From Ruminococcus sp. (GTDB taxonomy: Bacteria; Bacillota; Clostridia; Oscillospirales; Acutalibacteraceae), in NCBI GenBank assembly GCA_022768065.1, contig JALELS010000026.1, forward strand, positions 72,961 through 114,996: a stretch of DNA of 42,036 nucleotides, in the 5' to 3' direction. Under the pieces are notes generated by a model. The model was not told where the DNA came from and did no database searches. It was given only the letters and a program-made list of their open reading frames with translations. This document shows positions 15,711 to 37,514 of the stretch, piece by piece (positions within the stretch are counted from its first letter, which is position 1; every line of letters begins with the position of its first letter). The position numbers and the translations under genes are program-made.

Positions 15711-18700
15711 TTAAAACAGCGATAACTGCGCCGTTTTCGGAATGTCGCCGAACGCGCCGACGTTTTCGAGCATTTCTATGGTGGATTTGCCTGCTCCCGA
15801 GCGGCGTGCAAAATCGTCAATTGATATAAACTTGCCCTCGCCGTCGTTTCTTGCCTCGGCAAGCGGTATGGCGGCGCTCTCGCCTATGCCCGACAGCGCA
15901 CCGAACGGCATTCTGATTTTGCCGTCCTCTATTACATACCTTGTCGCCTCGGATTTATATATATCGACCGGGAGCAGCTCTATGCCCCTTGCCATCATCT
16001 CGTTTACCACCTGCAAAGCGGTATACTGTTCTTTATCTTTGGCTGTGGCGGATTTGGTTTTTACTTTATTATCGATTTCCGCCATACGCTCTTTGACGGC
16101 GTCCCTGCCCTTTATTGCCACCGCAGCGTCAACTCCGTCTCCGCGAACGGTAAGAAATGCCGTATAGTATTCGAGCGGCTTGTATATTTTATACCAGCCG
16201 AGCCTCAGCGCGGCAATTACGTAAGCCGCGGCGTGGGCTTTCGGGAACATATACTTTATCTTGCGGCACGAATCCATATACCACTGCGGCACGTTGTGCT
16301 CGCGCATGGCTTCTTCGGCGCCCTCTGGGAAGCCTTTTTTAGCTACTATACCCTTTCTCGTTTTCTCCATTATGTTAAACGCCATACTCGGGTCAAGCCC
16401 TGCGTGCATAAGGTAAATCATAATGCTGTCACGCGTTCCGATAACCGAAGAAATGGTGCAGATGCCGTCTTTTATAAGGTCCTGTGCGTTGCCGTTCCAA
16501 ACGTCCGTACCGTGTGAAAGTCCCGAAATCTGCAAAAGGTCGGCAAAGGTCTTGGGCTGTGCCTCCAAAAGCATCTGACAGACGAACGAAGTACCCATTT
16601 CGGGGATAGACAAAGTGCCCGTTTTCCAGTCTATATCCTCCGGCGTTACGCCGAGCGGTTCGGGTGAAGTACAGAGCTTTATAATCTCGGGGTCGCATAT
16701 ATCTATGTCGGTTACATTTATACCCGTCATATCTTCGAGGTGTTTGTCGAGCGTGGGAACATCGTGGCCGAGCTCGTCAAGCTTCAATATGGTATCGTGC
16801 ATCGAACGGAAGTCGAAGTGCGTTGTCTCCATATCGCTCTCGGTATCGTCGGCAGGGTACTGAATGGGTGTGAAGTCGTACACATCGTATTCGTTGGGTA
16901 CAACGACCATTCCGCCGGGGTGCTGACCCGTGGTTCTCTTAACTCCCGTACAGCCGCGTGCCAAACGCTCTATCTCGGCTTTGTTTGCGTGAATATTTCT
17001 CTCTTCAAGATACTTTAAAACATAGCCGTAGGCGGTCTTGTCGGCGACCGAGGCTATTGTACCCGCCTTGAATACGTGCGTTTTGCCGAAGAGCTCCTCC
17101 GTGTATCTGTGCGCCTTGCCCTGATATTCGCCGGAGAAGTTAAGGTCGATATCGGGCGCCTTGTCGCCGTGAAAGCCGAGGAAGGTTTCAAACGGTATTT
17201 CGTGGCCGTCCCTTATCATCTGCGCGCCGCAATGCGGACATTTTTTCGGCGGCATATCAAATCCCGAGCCGTACTCGCCCTTTGTGTAAAATTCGGAATA
17301 ACGGCACTCGGGGCACCTGTAATGAGGCGGCAGCGGATTTACTTCGGAAATACCTGCCATAGAGGCGACGAACGACGAGCCTACCGAACCTCGCGAACCT
17401 ACATGGTAACCGTGATCCTCGGAATCCCACACAAGCTTTTGGGCTATTATGTAAAGTACGGCAAATCCGTTTTTGATTATGGAGTCAAGCTCGCGGTTAA
17501 GTCGGCTCTCGACGATTTCGGGAACCTTGCCCTCAAATTCATACCACTTTTTCGCCTTGGTCCAGCAAATGTCTCTGAGCTGTTCCTCGGCGCCGTCTAT
17601 GGAGGGCTGGAAAGTGCCTATCGGGAACGGGCGTACCACGTCTATCATATCTGCTATCTTGTTGGGATTTTCTATGACTATTTCGTGAGCGGTCTCCTCG
17701 CCGAGGTATGAGAACTCATTGAGCATTTCCTCGGTTGTTCTGAAATAGAGCGGAGCCTGCTTGTCGGCGTCGGTAAAGCCCTGCGCCGCCATAAGAATGG
17801 CGCGGTATTTTGCGTCCTCGGGGTCTATGAAGTGGACGTCGCAGGTGGCAACAACGGGCTTGCCGAGCTTATCGGCAATGGCTATAACCTTGCGGTTGAC
17901 GTTTTCTATATCTTCAATGCAGGTTATCTTGTCGAATTCCTTGTTTTTGTCGGGATTTTTCGCCGAGGGGTCGGAGTGGGCGTCTATCATAAAGCGGTTG
18001 TTTCCGACGGGCTGAATTTCGAGATAGTCGTAAAACGACGCTATCTCCATAATCTCCTGTTCGGGACGCTCCTCAAGTATGGCGCGGTAAAGCTCGCCCG
18101 CCTCGCACGCCGAACCGATAATCAATCCCTCGCGGTGCTTCATTATTTCGCTCTTGGGCATTCTCGGCTTTTTGTAGAAATAGTCGATATTCGACTTTGA
18201 AATCAGCTTGTAGAGATTTTTAAGTCCTACATGATTTTTGACAAGAATTATCTGGTGATATGAACGAAGCTCTTTGTAAGTCTTGTCCGGCTCTTTGATG
18301 TCGTCTATAAAATAATCCTCGATGCCGTAAATGATTTTGATTTTGCCTGCGGCGGCATTACACGCCTCGGGGTACCCCTGAACGCAGCCGTGGTCGGTTA
18401 TGGCTATTGCCTTGTGCCCCCACTTTATGGCGCGCTCCACAAGCTTTGAGGGCGGAGTCATACCGTCCATCTGCGACATATTTGTATGCAGGTGAAGTTC
18501 AACGCGCTTTTCGGGATAATTATCCTCTTTTTCTATCATCTGAACAGTACTTATGCACTTCGGTTTTATTGTGTATTCGCCGCGGTACGTGTCAAATTCG
18601 ACCTCGCCGAACATAAGTATGTGTGCTCCGTCTTTAAGCTTTGACAGCAGCTCGTCGCAGTGCTCAACCTTTGGAAGCATAACGGCGGAAAAGGAATTTG

Positions 18701-19520
18701 TATTGTCGGTTATATTAAATGTAACTACCTTGACTTTGCCCTTTTTTGTGTCTTTGACTTCAATGCCGAAAACCTCGCCGTAAATCGTAACGGGCGTTGT
18801 GTCGCCCTCCTCGGGCAGAGTGATTTCGTCTATTCTTATGGGCTGACTTCTGATGACGTTGCCGAAAATCGGCTTTACGCTCTCAAGATAATACGGTATA
18901 CCATCCTTTACGATGTGCTCGCGCGGCGGCTCGTCTTCTTTTACCGGGTCAAAGCTGCGCGAAGAACCGCTCTTGACGGGTGATACTTTGGGAGCCATAC
19001 TGTCAATCTTTTTCTGCACCGCGGAAATATCCTCGCCTGCGTCATATCCGTCGCTCTGAGTGAAAGAAATTTCCTGCGTTACTCCGAAACGCTCCCTGAG
19101 CATTTTTGATATGAGATTTTGCGCGCCGACATCTTCAAGAATCTGCTTGCCGCCGTGCATAAGCTCGATTTCCGTTTTTCCGTCGGAGAAATTATATTTG
19201 CAGTCGGCAAAAAAGCCGTTTGCCATAGGCACGTTTTTCTTTGCCCACTCGCTTATTTCACCCGAATATTTTTCCGAAAAAAGCGACGAAGAAAAGACCG
19301 GCGTCGTTTTAACCGCACCGAGTCCGAGTCTTTCTTTTATTATAGCGTTTATTTTATCAAGTGTTTTCTCCGATACAAGACGCGGAAAGCGCACTTTAAG
19401 ATACAGCTTTCTTTCGGCAGGGTCGGCGCTCATATCAATTATATCGGCGCCGCCGAGAACTGCGTCCAAATCCGAGAAATCGTTTCTGTATTCTATAAAC
19501 AGGTCATAAAAGCTTGTCAT
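15711..19520 (-). CDS. polC: DNA polymerase III alpha subunit, PolC type, without the exonuclease domain
   Basis: 1269-aa replicative polymerase of low-GC Gram-positives, acting with the beta clamp at the fork. In order: N-terminal domain (1-200); OB domain (about 243-325); PHP domain beginning ELHLHTNMSQMDG (341-353); palm with the catalytic PDIDLNFSG (D790, D792); zinc knuckle C736/C739/C761/C764; thumb, fingers and the C-terminal domain. It ends in QLSLF, a clamp-binding motif. In ordinary PolC (about 1430-1450 aa) a DEDD exonuclease is inserted inside PHP after YG-E-Y. Here YGIEDYFIDD (398-407) runs straight into SYHQIILVKN (about 420-429), so about 170 residues and any proofreading motif (D-x-E-T-T-G) are absent. 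The frame is intact. Probably co-transcribed with ispG (18-nt gap). Confidence 0.96.
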   Translation of the reverse strand: MTSFYDLFIEYRNDFSDLDAVLGGADIIDMSADPAERKLYLKVRFPRLVSEKTLDKINAIIKERLGLGAVKTTPVFSSSLFSEKYSGEISEWAKKNVPMANGFFADCKYNFSDGKTEIELMHGGKQILEDVGAQNLISKMLRERFGVTQEISFTQSDGYDAGEDISAVQKKIDSMAPKVSPVKSGSSRSFDPVKEDEPPREHIVKDGIPYYLESVKPIFGNVIRSQPIRIDEITLPEEGDTTPVTIYGEVFGIEVKDTKKGKVKVVTFNITDNTNSFSAVMLPKVEHCDELLSKLKDGAHILMFGEVEFDTYRGEYTIKPKCISTVQMIEKEDNYPEKRVELHLHTNMSQMDGMTPPSKLVERAIKWGHKAIAITDHGCVQGYPEACNAAAGKIKIIYGIEDYFIDDIKEPDKTYKELRSYHQIILVKNHVGLKNLYKLISKSNIDYFYKKPRMPKSEIMKHREGLIIGSACEAGELYRAILEERPEQEIMEIASFYDYLEIQPVGNNRFMIDAHSDPSAKNPDKNKEFDKITCIEDIENVNRKVIAIADKLGKPVVATCDVHFIDPEDAKYRAILMAAQGFTDADKQAPLYFRTTEEMLNEFSYLGEETAHEIVIENPNKIADMIDVVRPFPIGTFQPSIDGAEEQLRDICWTKAKKWYEFEGKVPEIVESRLNRELDSIIKNGFAVLYIIAQKLVWDSEDHGYHVGSRGSVGSSFVASMAGISEVNPLPPHYRCPECRYSEFYTKGEYGSGFDMPPKKCPHCGAQMIRDGHEIPFETFLGFHGDKAPDIDLNFSGEYQGKAHRYTEELFGKTHVFKAGTIASVADKTAYGYVLKYLEERNIHANKAEIERLARGCTGVKRTTGQHPGGMVVVPNEYDVYDFTPIQYPADDTESDMETTHFDFRSMHDTILKLDELGHDVPTLDKHLEDMTGINVTDIDICDPEIIKLCTSPEPLGVTPEDIDWKTGTLSIPEMGTSFVCQMLLEAQPKTFADLLQISGLSHGTDVWNGNAQDLIKDGICTISSVIGTRDSIMIYLMHAGLDPSMAFNIMEKTRKGIVAKKGFPEGAEEAMREHNVPQWYMDSCRKIKYMFPKAHAAAYVIAALRLGWYKIYKPLEYYTAFLTVRGDGVDAAVAIKGRDAVKERMAEIDNKVKTKSATAKDKEQYTALQVVNEMMARGIELLPVDIYKSEATRYVIEDGKIRMPFGALSGIGESAAIPLAEARNDGEGKFISIDDFARRSGAGKSTIEMLENVGAFGDIPKTAQLSLF

Positions 19521-19538: not shown

Positions 19539-20591
19539 TCACAATTTTTCTATTTCTTTAAGTAATTCCGGAACTATTTCGTCCTCGCTTACTTTTTTGA
19601 GTATTTTGCCGTGCTTGAATATCATACCGCAGCCGTCGCCGCCGGCTACGCCTATATCGGCTTCTTTGGCTTCGCCGGGACCGTTTACCACACACCCCAT
19701 AACAGCCACCTTAATAGGCTTCCGACAGTTCCGTAAGGCGTTTTCGATTTTTTCGGCGAGAGAAATCAGGTCGATTTTGGTTCTGCCGCAGGTCGGGCAC
19801 GATACTATCTGCGGACAGTCCTTTTTAATATCAACCGCCTTTAATATATCGAAGCCCGCCGAAACCTCCTCTATGGGGTCGGCCGTAAGAGAAACGCGTA
19901 TGGTATCGCCTATGCCGTCCATTAAAAGCGAGCCTATCCCCGCCGCGGATTTAATAAGCCCCATACGGCGCGTGCCTGCCTCGGTTACGCCGAGATGCAG
20001 CGGATAATCGCACATAGTTGCAATTTTTCTGTATGCCGAGACCATGGTGGGCACGTCGGAGGATTTTATGGAGATAACTATATCGTGGAAATCGAATTTT
20101 TCGAGAAGTCCCGCGTGGTAAAGCGCGCTCTCGCAAAGTGCGTCAGGCGTGGGAGCGCCGTATTTCGCGAGAATATCCTTTTCAAGCGAGCCCGAATTTA
20201 CGCCTATCCTTATGGGTATATTTTTTGCACGGCAGGCGTCGGCAACCGCTTTAACGCGATCATCGGAGCCTATGTTGCCGGGATTTATTCTTATTTTGTC
20301 GGCACCTGCCGCAACGCTCTCAAGCGCGCAGCGATAGTCGAAATGTATATCCGCAACCACGGGAATTGAGACCTTCTCTTTAACGGCTGCCAAGGTCTTT
20401 ACCGCCTCTTTATTTGGAACCGTGAGACGGATAATCTCACAGCCGGCTTTTTGCAGTTCCAATGCCTGCTTAACATTGCCCTCGGCGTCTTCGGCAGGAA
20501 CATTTAACATCGACTGAACGGGTATATGATTGTTTCCGCCTATTTTTACGTTACCTGCCGTTACAACACGGCTCTTTCGTCTTTCGAACAT
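19539..20591 (-). CDS. ispG: 4-hydroxy-3-methylbut-2-enyl diphosphate synthase (flavodoxin/ferredoxin)
   Basis: 350-aa [4Fe-4S] enzyme that reductively converts methylerythritol cyclodiphosphate to HMBPP in the MEP isoprenoid pathway. TIM barrel opening VKIGGNNHIPVQSMLN; cluster-binding half with SCPTCGRTKID and GCVVNGPGEAKEADIG. Start ATG20591 has GGAGG 9 nt upstream; a longer reading adds nine unrelated residues. In the usual cluster order it follows dxr and rseP and precedes polC. The 340-nt gap upstream holds repeats (see those entries). Confidence 0.97.
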   Translation of the reverse strand: MFERRKSRVVTAGNVKIGGNNHIPVQSMLNVPAEDAEGNVKQALELQKAGCEIIRLTVPNKEAVKTLAAVKEKVSIPVVADIHFDYRCALESVAAGADKIRINPGNIGSDDRVKAVADACRAKNIPIRIGVNSGSLEKDILAKYGAPTPDALCESALYHAGLLEKFDFHDIVISIKSSDVPTMVSAYRKIATMCDYPLHLGVTEAGTRRMGLIKSAAGIGSLLMDGIGDTIRVSLTADPIEEVSAGFDILKAVDIKKDCPQIVSCPTCGRTKIDLISLAEKIENALRNCRKPIKVAVMGCVVNGPGEAKEADIGVAGGDGCGMIFKHGKILKKVSEDEIVPELLKEIEKL

Positions 20592-20636
20592 TTTTATGTA
20601 CCTCCGATATTTCGGCAAAAGGGAACCTGAACAATC

Positions 20637-33974: not shown

Positions 33975-35717
33975 TTAATCGTACTTTTTGCGCGCAACAT
34001 AAGTCGTGTGCAAAACTTCATGTGCCTTGTGGCCGCCCGGCTCGCCGAGGAATTCATCGTACAGCTCTTTAACAGCCGAATTTTCGTGCGAACGTCTCTT
34101 TTGATTTTTTTCGTCGGATTCATAGAGCGCTTTTGCGCGGCGCTCTTTCAAATCGACAAAATTACGCACAACCGCGTGCTGTATAGGCTGTCCTCCGCCG
34201 TTTATACAGCCGCCGGGGCAGCCCATTATTTCTATAAATGTATAATCCGCCGAGCCGTCCTTTATCTTATCCATAAGATAGCCCGCGTTTTTGGTTCCGC
34301 TTGCAACCGCAACCTTTACGTTAAGACCGCCCACATCATACTGCGCCTCTTTTATATTTTTCATTCCGCGAACTTCGGTAAAATCGGGCGACGGAGCTTC
34401 TTCACCGGTTATCAGCTTAACTGCGGTGCGAAGAGCCGCCTCCATAACTCCGCCCGTAGCGCCGAAAATGGTTGCCGCTCCGGTGCTCTCGCCGAACGGA
34501 TTGTCAAACTCCTCATCGGGTAAATGCTTAAAATATATTCCCGCGCTCTCTATCATACGCGCAAGCTCTCTTGTGGTTATGGCAATGTCAACATCAGGAT
34601 AACCGCTTGCCGCCTCGCCGTCGCGCTTTGTCTCAAACTTCTTTGCGGTGCACGGCATAACTCCCACAACTACCATCTTAGAGGGGTCCATATTGAGCTT
34701 CTTTGCATACCATGTTTTCATAGTTGCGCCGAACATCTGCTGCGGCGATTTGCACGTGGAAAGGTGCGGTATAAGCTCGGGGTAATAGTGCTCGCAATAC
34801 TTTATCCAGCCCGGTGAGCACGAAGTTATCATCGGTAAAACTCCGCCGTTTTTAACGCGCTCAACAAGCTCGTTTGCCTCTTCTATAATAGTAAGGTCGG
34901 CGGCAAAATCCGTATCAAACACCTTATCGAAGCCGAGTCTGCGAAGCGCAGCAACCATTTTGCCCTCGACGTTTGTGCCGATTTTCATACCGAAAGCCTC
35001 GCCGAGCGTAGCTCTGATTGACGGTGCGGTATTTACTATTACAAACTTATCGGGGTCGTTTACGGCGTCAAGAACTTTTGCCGTGTCGTCCTTTTCGACT
35101 ATTGCGCCCGTGGGGCAGTTTACTATACACTGGCCGCAGGAAATGCACGAGACGTCCGCAAGCTTTTTATCAAATGCGGACCCTATGTGGGTGTCAAAGC
35201 CTCTCGCATTGGCGCCTATTACGCCTATGCCCTGCGCGTCGCAGGCTGCAACGCATCTGCGGCAGAGTATGCACTTATTGTTATCCCTTATCATATGGGC
35301 GGCAGACACGTCTTTTTCGTAATGTATCGTTTCGCCCTTATATTCGTCCGCGTTATCAACGCCGTAATCCTTGCAGAGCTTTTGCACCTCACACGTTCCG
35401 CTGCGCACACAGGTAAGGCAGTTTTTTTCGTGAACGGAAAGTATCAGTTCAAGAGTAGTCCTCCTTGAGCGGCGAACCTTATCGGTATTTGTGAATATCT
35501 CCATGCCCTCGGCTACGGGGAAAACACATGCGGACACGAGATTTCGCGCGCCCTTTACCTCGACCATACATATGCGGCAGGCGCCTATCTCGTTTATATC
35601 CTTTAAGTAGCAAAGCGTAGGGATTTCTATGCCGGCATATCTTGCCGCCTCAAGTATTGAAATTCCCTTCGGCACGCTCAGGGGCATGCCGTTTATTTTA
35701 ATATTTACGTTTTCCAT
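33975..35717 (-). CDS. hydA: [FeFe] hydrogenase catalytic subunit of an NADH-linked (bifurcating) complex
   Basis: 580-aa H2-forming subunit. An N-terminal [2Fe-2S] domain (C36, C47, C50, C64) is followed by a His-ligated [4Fe-4S] (H96, C100, C103, C109) and a two-[4Fe-4S] ferredoxin domain (C149/152/155/159 and C191/194/197/201). The H-cluster motifs are L1 TSCSPGWIKY (C300), L2 MPCTAKKFE (C356) and L3 MGCPGGCINGGGQP (C500, C504), and a small-subunit C-terminus follows. ATG35717 has AAGGAG 8 nt upstream. Last gene of hydC-hydE-hydD-hydB-hydA; 12-nt gap from hydB. Active-site maturases HydEFG are not in the window. Confidence 0.97.
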   Translation of the reverse strand: MENVNIKINGMPLSVPKGISILEAARYAGIEIPTLCYLKDINEIGACRICMVEVKGARNLVSACVFPVAEGMEIFTNTDKVRRSRRTTLELILSVHEKNCLTCVRSGTCEVQKLCKDYGVDNADEYKGETIHYEKDVSAAHMIRDNNKCILCRRCVAACDAQGIGVIGANARGFDTHIGSAFDKKLADVSCISCGQCIVNCPTGAIVEKDDTAKVLDAVNDPDKFVIVNTAPSIRATLGEAFGMKIGTNVEGKMVAALRRLGFDKVFDTDFAADLTIIEEANELVERVKNGGVLPMITSCSPGWIKYCEHYYPELIPHLSTCKSPQQMFGATMKTWYAKKLNMDPSKMVVVGVMPCTAKKFETKRDGEAASGYPDVDIAITTRELARMIESAGIYFKHLPDEEFDNPFGESTGAATIFGATGGVMEAALRTAVKLITGEEAPSPDFTEVRGMKNIKEAQYDVGGLNVKVAVASGTKNAGYLMDKIKDGSADYTFIEIMGCPGGCINGGGQPIQHAVVRNFVDLKERRAKALYESDEKNQKRRSHENSAVKELYDEFLGEPGGHKAHEVLHTTYVARKKYD

Positions 35718-35729
35718 ATGGCACACTCC

Positions 35730-37514
35730 TTATCTTTTAACTATCGCGCCGAATTTGCAGGTCTGCATACAGACGCCGCATTTGACGCAAAGCGATTTGT
35801 TGATTGTATGGGCTTCTTTGACGTTGCCGCTTATAGCGCCAACAGGGCATTTTCTCGCACAGGCGGTACAGCCGCGGCATCTGTCCTCAAGTATCTCATA
35901 AGACAACAGTGCCTTGCAAACGCCTGCCGGACATTTTTTGTCAACAACGTGAGCCTCATACTCGTTACGGAAAAATTTGAGTGTGGCAAGCACGGGGTTC
36001 GGTGCCGTCTGACCGAGTCCGCAAAGTGAATTTGCCTTGATGTAATGACACAGATCTTCGAGCTTGTCGAGGTCCCGGAGCGTTGCGTTGCCCGACGTTA
36101 TCTTTTCGAGCATTTCGAGCAGACGCTTTGTGCCCACACGGCACGGCGTACATTTGCCGCAGGATTCGTCTACGGTAAAGTTGAGGAAGAACTTTGCAAT
36201 ATCCACCATACAGTCGTCCTCATCCATTACTATGAGTCCGCCCGAGCCCATCATACAGCCTATGGCTGTAAGGTTATCGTAGTCAATTGGGGTATCCATA
36301 AGCGAAGCCGGTATGCAGCCGCCCGAGGGGCCGCCCGTCTGAGCCGCCTTGAACTTTTTGCCGCCGGGTATACCGCCGCCTATCTCCTCTACAATTTCGC
36401 GGAGAGTTGTGCCCATGGGTATTTCTACAAGTCCCGTATTTTTGATTTTGCCGCCGAGAGCGAACACCTTTGTTCCCTTTGAACGCTCGGTTCCCATTGA
36501 GGCGAACCAATCCGCTCCGTTAAGTATTATCTGAGCGACATTCGCAAAGGTTTCAACGTTATTTTCCGTGGTCGGCTTTCCGAAAAGGCCCTTGACCGCA
36601 GGGTACGGGGGTCTCGGTCGCGGCTCGCCGCGGTTGCCCTCTATTGACGTCATAAGCGCCGTCTCCTCGCCGCAGACAAACGCGCCGGCTCCGAGGCGTA
36701 TATGAAGGTCAAAATCAAATCCGCTGTCGAATATGTTTTTTCCGAGCAGGCCGTATTCCCTCGCCTGCCCTATCGCTATTTCAAGGCGTTTTACGGCAAT
36801 CGGGTATTCGGCTCTTACATATATGTAGCCCTCGCTCGCGCCCGTGGCATAACCGCATATCGCCATGGCTTCAATTATGCAGTGCGGGTCGCCCTCAAGC
36901 ACCGAACGGTCCATAAACGCACCCGGGTCACCCTCGTCGGCGTTGCAGACAACATATTTTTGATCGGATTTCTGCGCCGCGGTGAAACTCCACTTTTTGC
37001 CCGTGGGGAATCCTCCGCCGCCTCTGCCCCTGAGTCCCGACTCGGAAATAATGTCTATAACCTGCTCCGGAGTGTATTCGGAGAGACACTTTGCGAGAGC
37101 CGCGTAGCCGTCGTACGCTATATATTCGTCTATGTTTTCGGGGTCGATAACACCGCAGTTGCGAAGTGCGACGCGGTGCTGTTTTTTGTAGAAATCCGTC
37201 TCCTTGAGCGACTTTATGTCGTCCATGGTGAACTCCTCAAACAGCAGTCTTTTAACTATTCTGCCCTTTAAGAGGTGTTCCTCCACAATTTCGGGAACGT
37301 CCTCGGGTTTTACAAGCGAATAGTAGCTGCCCTCGGGGTAAACCACCATTATTGGGCCGCGCGCGCAAAGTCCGAAACAGCCTGTTCTGACGACCTTTAC
37401 CTCATTTTCAAGACCGTGTTTTTTGATTTCGGCTTCGAGCGCTTCAATTATAGCGGCGCTGTTTGAAGAGGTACAGCCGGTACCGCCGCAAACGAGCACA
37501 TGTGAACGATACAT
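35730..37514 (-). CDS. hydB: NADH-oxidising flavin subunit of the bifurcating hydrogenase (NuoF-like)
   Basis: 594-aa subunit where NADH is oxidised and, in studied complexes, electrons are split or merged. An N-terminal thioredoxin-like [2Fe-2S] domain (C9, C14, C46, C50) leads into the NuoF core, with the FMN/NADH loop GLRGRGGGGFPTGKKW and the NADEGDPGAFMDR region. ESCGKCTPCRVG gives the [4Fe-4S] N3 cluster. The C-terminal ferredoxin part with CRGCTACARKCPVGAI and CVKCGVCMQTCKFGAI is typical of HydB and absent from Complex I NuoF. It is packed between hydD and hydA. Confidence 0.96.
   Translation of the reverse strand: MYRSHVLVCGGTGCTSSNSAAIIEALEAEIKKHGLENEVKVVRTGCFGLCARGPIMVVYPEGSYYSLVKPEDVPEIVEEHLLKGRIVKRLLFEEFTMDDIKSLKETDFYKKQHRVALRNCGVIDPENIDEYIAYDGYAALAKCLSEYTPEQVIDIISESGLRGRGGGGFPTGKKWSFTAAQKSDQKYVVCNADEGDPGAFMDRSVLEGDPHCIIEAMAICGYATGASEGYIYVRAEYPIAVKRLEIAIGQAREYGLLGKNIFDSGFDFDLHIRLGAGAFVCGEETALMTSIEGNRGEPRPRPPYPAVKGLFGKPTTENNVETFANVAQIILNGADWFASMGTERSKGTKVFALGGKIKNTGLVEIPMGTTLREIVEEIGGGIPGGKKFKAAQTGGPSGGCIPASLMDTPIDYDNLTAIGCMMGSGGLIVMDEDDCMVDIAKFFLNFTVDESCGKCTPCRVGTKRLLEMLEKITSGNATLRDLDKLEDLCHYIKANSLCGLGQTAPNPVLATLKFFRNEYEAHVVDKKCPAGVCKALLSYEILEDRCRGCTACARKCPVGAISGNVKEAHTINKSLCVKCGVCMQTCKFGAIVKR

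Follow-up and report, generated by a model that had tools for sequence, protein, structure and literature searches.

The polC gene of the window

The window analyzed here is a 42,036-nucleotide stretch of a Ruminococcus sp. genome (GenBank assembly GCA_022768065.1, contig JALELS010000026.1, positions 72,961 to 114,996 of the forward strand), and it carries on its minus strand a gene for the replicase PolC (Table 1). The reading frame is unbroken from its ATG start, and NCBIfam models place its 1269-residue product in PolC (NF001688, 1461 bits against a cut-off of 873; TIGR01405, 1344 bits against 1043). Pfam detects PHP (residues 341-497), DNA_pol3_alpha, finger, HHH_6, and OB-fold domains together with a weak PolC N-terminal domain, and finds no RNase_T domain at E ≤ 0.001 in the protein. 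The OB, PHP, polymerase core, and HhH domains and the clamp motif are common to this protein and to canonical PolCs such as those of Enterococcus faecium (9qpc) and Geobacillus kaustophilus (3f2b), but where the canonical enzyme has a DEDDh exonuclease between the fifth and sixth PHP metal ligands, the window PolC has a 20-residue loop. The same interval spans 197-237 residues (median 213) in 99 exonuclease-containing (exo-containing) PolCs, and the loop of the window PolC matches in length that of the DnaE from the same genome. The motif PDIDLNF and four cysteines, presumably the zinc motif, are invariant across an alignment of 45 exonuclease-less (exo-less) PolCs, and we take the C-terminal QLSLF to be the clamp-binding motif.

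Several alignments locate the missing segment at one point. The alignment to E. faecium PolC jumps from 9qpc residue 432 to 626, the best NF001688 stretch begins at profile column 606, and genome-level PolC profile matches cover columns 23-408 and 606-1444. A sequence search of solved structures aligned the protein in two pieces around the exonuclease of E. faecium PolC, and in one piece to G. kaustophilus PolC, which was crystallized with its exonuclease removed beforehand (PMC12592400). The predicted structure is that of an ordinary PolC, with 980 residues overlaying 3f2b. The initial annotation of this DNA, which described an apparently functional PolC lacking its built-in exonuclease, with YGIEDYFIDD from residue 398, SYHQIILVKN from residue 420, an unbroken frame, intact PHP motifs, and a QLSLF end, is borne out in each of these respects, and the alignment it called for shows the DEDDh position skipped with no RNase_T domain elsewhere in the protein.

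An assembly or annotation artifact, conceivable in that the window is part of a draft genome of 32 contigs, has a negligible probability. In all 36 genomes of the window's genus (its own included), the PolC profile matches end at columns 407-409 and restart at 602-610. In 35 of them both pieces sit on a single contig, about 20 bases apart at most, with an identical junction, which rules out the assembly deletion that the initial annotation had considered; in G013 the pieces lie on two contigs and the gene breaks at the junction, which is therefore unreadable. The junction and its 20-residue loop are shared by 13 of 13 exo-less loci from named metagenome-assembled genomes, including 'Candidatus Fimenecus excrementigallinarum', six of the 13 being copies of genomes in the G-numbered set (identical over the last 1000 residues). 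In all 20 named loci (13 exo-less and seven exo-containing), polC is directly preceded by ispG, with dxr and rseP ahead of the pair save where the contig or locus ends. As this gene order is common to exo-less and exo-containing relatives, the window gene is the resident PolC.

PolCs of this type have been described before. Timinskas et al. (2013; PMC3919608) reported an exo-less variant comprising 6% of PolCs, and 16% of those in PolC+DnaE1 systems, confined to Clostridia and Negativicutes except for one extra copy in Thermotogae. The window PolC has the same architecture, with an uninterrupted PHP domain and a DnaE partner (at contig C1 of the window genome, G000; called DnaE1 by lineage, a label taken from the literature only), and it belongs to this variant, which has been in print since 2013; its novelty is thus lower than the initial annotation assumed. 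Worked out here are the informative distribution of the variant, how often the trait has changed, and the lack of replacement exonucleases. Among the matches listed in the open-access literature, no paper's title or opening abstract deals with PolC losing its exonuclease repeatedly or with PHP proofreading in PolC, and genomes combining an exo-less PolC with no DnaQ are not discussed in the passages covered of a 2026 survey (PMC12926913).

Table 1. Features of polC and its neighbor in the window, with residue numbers of the PolC protein
Feature	Positions	Strand	Basis
polC open reading frame, 1269 residues	15711..19520	minus	Open reading frame translation, Pfam, NCBIfam, solved-structure sequence search
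Loop of 20 residues (402-421) separating PHP ligands E401 and H422; site of the ~213-residue DEDDh exonuclease of other PolCs	18258..18317	minus	
PHP domain part 1, residues 338-401; ligands H343, H345, D376, H377, E401	18318..18509	minus	Pfam and ligand alignment; approximate limits
PHP domain part 2, from residue 422; ligands H422, C472, D561, H563	17637..18257	minus	Pfam and ligand alignment; approximate end
OB fold, residues 244-323, preceding PHP in PolC order	18552..18791	minus	Pfam
Polymerase core and fingers, residues 647-1057	16350..17582	minus	Pfam
HhH domain, residues 1179-1261	15738..15986	minus	Pfam
C-terminal QLSLF	15714..15728	minus	Translation
ispG (GcpE), directly upstream of polC	19539..20618	minus	

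Distribution of exo-less PolCs and number of changes

Exo-less PolCs are scattered among exo-containing relatives in samples of the window's order, class, and phylum, which share a few genomes and have completeness floors of 90% (order and class) or 95% (phylum). A PolC match is present in 109 of 117 order genomes (13 exo-less, 95 exo-containing, one fragment), in 130 of 137 class genomes (21 exo-less, five with a non-exonuclease insert, 103 exo-containing, one undetermined), and in 46 of 61 phylum genomes (29 exo-less, comprising 25 confirmed on sequence, the window's included, and four assigned solely from profile coordinates, versus 17 exo-containing). Of the 44 PolC-bearing phylum genomes that lie outside the window's class (presumably Clostridia), 28 are exo-less, and an exo-less ancestor is possible there.

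Collection of 183 PolCs and removal of six identical ones left 177 distinct proteins (73 exo-less, 99 exo-containing, and five with odd inserts). A FastTree phylogeny of their polymerase core, from which the insert and the PHP ligand loop were excluded, requires 16 changes of exonuclease state, 12-13 of them forced by well-supported branches (local Shimodaira-Hasegawa [SH] support only), so that the tree mapping proposed in the initial annotation returns at least 12 changes. A more careful tree, with 38 of its 40 rows taken from the order's side, gives three changes, all forced, with a single change in 0% of 200 bootstrap trees; these lie in the window's genus, in G207 (another genus of the same family), and in genus g19 of family f19. 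Because the order's PolC exonucleases group in a single clade (48 rows, SH approximate likelihood-ratio test [SH-aLRT] support of 97), the three changes are best read as losses of the domain within the window's order. Tree counts alone cannot separate gain from loss, and loss is argued here within that order only.

The odd inserts, which lie between PHP ligands 5 and 6, are of two kinds. Two PolCs of family f57 (L124 and L131) carry inserts of 161 and 150 residues without the DEDDh residues. Their identity as degenerate exonucleases is not established by sequence, as hhalign values of 94.7-96.5% with flanks fall to 5.3% once the flanks are removed (0.1-1.4% for ten shuffled controls). An AlphaFold model of L131 has, in our own reading, an RNase H-like order of strands and helices in the insert, and VIA-align matches 401 of 416 residues of it to full-length PolC 9qpc (at a loose root-mean-square deviation of 11.1) versus 260 to exonuclease-deleted 3f2b; the input alignment held 15 exo-containing PolCs, and the model is not independent of them. 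An exonuclease fold that has decayed and lost its catalytic activity may survive in the f57 insert. In family f60, three PolCs of ~1650 residues (L135, L136, and L137) contain an insert of 327-329 residues with no clear kin, which has no RNase_T match at E ≤ 1e-20 and for which hhalign gives a local 72% over 51 columns with flanks and 13.5% over 29 without.

No PolC match at E ≤ 1e-60 is present in eight of nine genomes of the order's family f10 (G044, G199, G213, G226, G239, G262, G273, and G283), and in the ninth, G251, PolC persists only as a fragment with stops. Besides the resident polC, G023 (C44 and C77) and G035 (C10) contain extra PolC-like frames of 810-868 residues that cover profile columns 611-1384 only; these are possibly PolCs of mobile elements or phages.

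Stand-alone exonucleases

The initial annotation raised the possibility of a DnaQ-like protein acting in trans, which finds no support in the window genome. The sole RNase_T match there is a distant, 291-residue KapD-like protein (E 2.8e-13; G000:C1:52773-53648, also L005:12774-13649) encoded ~8 kb from dnaE, and a search with the PolC exonuclease of a family member returned only this same protein (E 4.4e-4). No DnaQ-like exonuclease was found elsewhere in the genome, which is 96.8% complete, so that a gene may have been missed. The KapD-like protein has DEDDh-like residues as judged by eye, and scores 77 bits against the KapD model (cut-off 169) and 23 bits against DnaQ (cut-off 71.5). As far as is known, enzymes of the KapD/ERI-1 type prefer RNA. 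Frames of 264-342 residues with an RNase_T match occur in 35 of the 36 genus genomes and are taken to encode the same protein, the window's own copy alone having been checked against families; in several other genus genomes the gene lies within ~10 kb of dnaE. A further RNase_T match is present in nine of the 36, strong (E ≤ 1e-30) in G009, G017, and G032 and weaker in G008, G013, G020, G023, G031, and G033.

In the order, a stand-alone exonuclease (E ≤ 1e-20) accompanies 11 of 13 exo-less versus 27 of 95 exo-containing genomes (Fisher p 0.00015, ignoring kinship); all 11 belong to family f2 (8/8) and genus g19 of f19 (3/3). Neither the window genome nor G207 has such a match, and none was found in the two exo-containing f19 genomes sampled. 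In the class, the counts are five of 26 exo-less or odd-insert versus 29 of 103 exo-containing genomes (p 0.46, treating genomes as independent), and at least eight of the 26 lack any RNase_T candidate. Among the 29 exo-less phylum genomes, nine have no RNase_T match at E ≤ 0.001 and the other 20 have at least one each, of several kinds.

Frames matching the exonuclease columns of PolC in G009, G017, G032, G036, and G053 had prompted the idea that the excised domain was relocated in trans. In a tree of 99 PolC exonuclease domains and 46 stand-alone exonucleases (a selection of those found; SH-aLRT support only, with many weak branches and long branches flagged), the f19 and main f2 stand-alones fall outside the order's 48-row clade, so that relocation is not supported for them. 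Two f2 stand-alones (L195 and L203) lie near other PolC exonucleases on weaker branches, and the f2 and g19 proteins appear for the most part not to be derived from PolC. The f2 stand-alone groups with those of the exo-containing family f7 (support 99), which suggests that it is older than the loss. Three f2 stand-alones of 307-310 residues (L195, L197, and L203) have an extra N-terminal part of ~120 residues.

Proofreading in trans by a stand-alone exonuclease, which in the window genome would fall to the KapD-like protein as the only candidate found, is very improbable: the near-universal presence of that frame in the genus, its DEDDh-like residues, the strong stand-alones of f2 and g19, and the enrichment in the order speak for it, but the window's own copy is below the KapD cut-off and only weakly DnaQ, its presumed class of enzyme acts on RNA by preference, some class genomes have no candidate and the class as a whole shows no enrichment, and the f19 and main f2 proteins do not fall within the order's PolC-exonuclease clade.

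The PHP site and replication fidelity

All nine PHP ligands of the window PolC are intact, in agreement with the nine-ligand motif HHDHEH[C/H]DH of PHP exonucleases (PMC12926913). The same is true of 72 of 73 exo-less, 97 of 99 exo-containing, and five of five odd-insert PolCs, and the PHP ligands of DnaE are intact in 21 of 21 genomes checked (19 of the genus, G036, and G058). Both exo-containing exceptions replace the eighth ligand, Asp, with Asn; in our own reading this corresponds to an Asp that is reported to be essential for PHP activity in Mycobacterium tuberculosis DnaE1 (PMC5636811). Proofreading by the PHP domain is an established property of certain DnaE polymerases (PMC5636811), and whether it is widespread was asked by Timinskas et al. 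(PMC3919608). M. tuberculosis DnaE1 and the window PolC have in common nine conserved metal ligands, an uninterrupted PHP domain, and a loop beside the site; the former is a DnaE-type enzyme with measured PHP-exonuclease activity (PMC5636811), whereas the latter is of PolC type and its activity is predicted.

We propose that PolC was deprived of its DnaQ-type exonuclease domain in an ancestor of the window's genus, so that a short loop now takes its place, and that the otherwise normal enzyme, with its clamp motif, would work beside DnaE. Misinserted bases would probably be removed by PolC's own PHP domain, which would act, like that of Mycobacterium DnaE1, as a metal-dependent 3'-5' exonuclease; the PHP domain of DnaE and MutS-type mismatch repair would be further safeguards. 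We consider this combination of PHP-based proofreading by both polymerases, backed by mismatch repair, the probable and most economical arrangement, and PHP proofreading is the best supported of the options raised in the initial annotation. It presupposes that the PHP site of PolC has catalytic activity and is accessible to the end of the primer, both of which we infer. MutS is present in the window genome, and a MutS_V match occurs in 59 of 59 relatives, a domain also found in MutS2 (G004, G007, and G027 show the weaker type only).

Several observations weigh against PHP-based proofreading. The site is just as intact in exo-containing PolCs, so that its conservation does not set exo-less ones apart, is no proof of DNA cleavage by itself, and could reflect a structural role; we know of no PolC with PHP exonuclease activity; and the pairing of loss with a stand-alone exonuclease in f2 and g19 (11 of 11 genomes) suggests that the PHP domain by itself does not always suffice. 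No clear relaxation or tightening of PHP evolution after exonuclease loss was found; the PHP domain keeps pace with the core in its divergence whether or not the exonuclease is present.

Two other accounts dispense with proofreading by PolC. In one, raised for PolC+DnaE1 systems by Timinskas et al. (PMC3919608), who pointed to the confinement of exo-less PolCs to clostridial genomes, a DnaE with an intact PHP proofreader carries out bulk synthesis accurately, and PolC, reduced to an accessory or strand-specific role, can dispense with proofreading. The absence of an intact PolC from all nine sampled f10 genomes and the uniformly intact DnaE PHP sites favor this account, but PolC is retained in 36 of 36 genus genomes and its PHP domain diverges at the pace of the core, just as it does in relatives with the exonuclease, and we regard this account as unlikely. 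In the other, PolC does not proofread and mismatch repair alone limits errors, at a raised mutation rate. The ubiquitous MutS_V matches and the lack of a detected DnaQ-type exonuclease in the window genome are consistent with this, but the trait persists across 36 species of the genus as well as in many further lineages, and the PHP ligands are maintained, which makes this account improbable.

Extending PHP-based proofreading beyond the window's genus, PolC may repeatedly have exchanged a DnaQ-type proofreader for its own PHP domain, so that many Bacillota, including most of the genus, would have lost DnaQ-type proofreading and rely only on the PHP domains of their two C-family polymerases, with f57 indicating a route; we offer this wider proposal tentatively, as slightly short of an even chance. 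To our knowledge, PHP proofreading has not been established in PolC, where it would go unseen because the DnaQ domain would mask it. Exo-less PolCs from genomes with no detected DnaQ-type exonuclease are clean material for testing it, and such tests would show whether a replicase can switch proofreading chemistry many times in evolution. Because an antibiotic now in clinical development targets PolC, it may also be useful to know which Clostridia carry which proofreader.

Across the window, Rfam models gave no hit at gathering score, and no tRNA was found. Positions 33975-37514 encode the large subunit of an iron-only hydrogenase beside a NuoF-like subunit, a pair that we take to be typical of an anaerobic fermenter.
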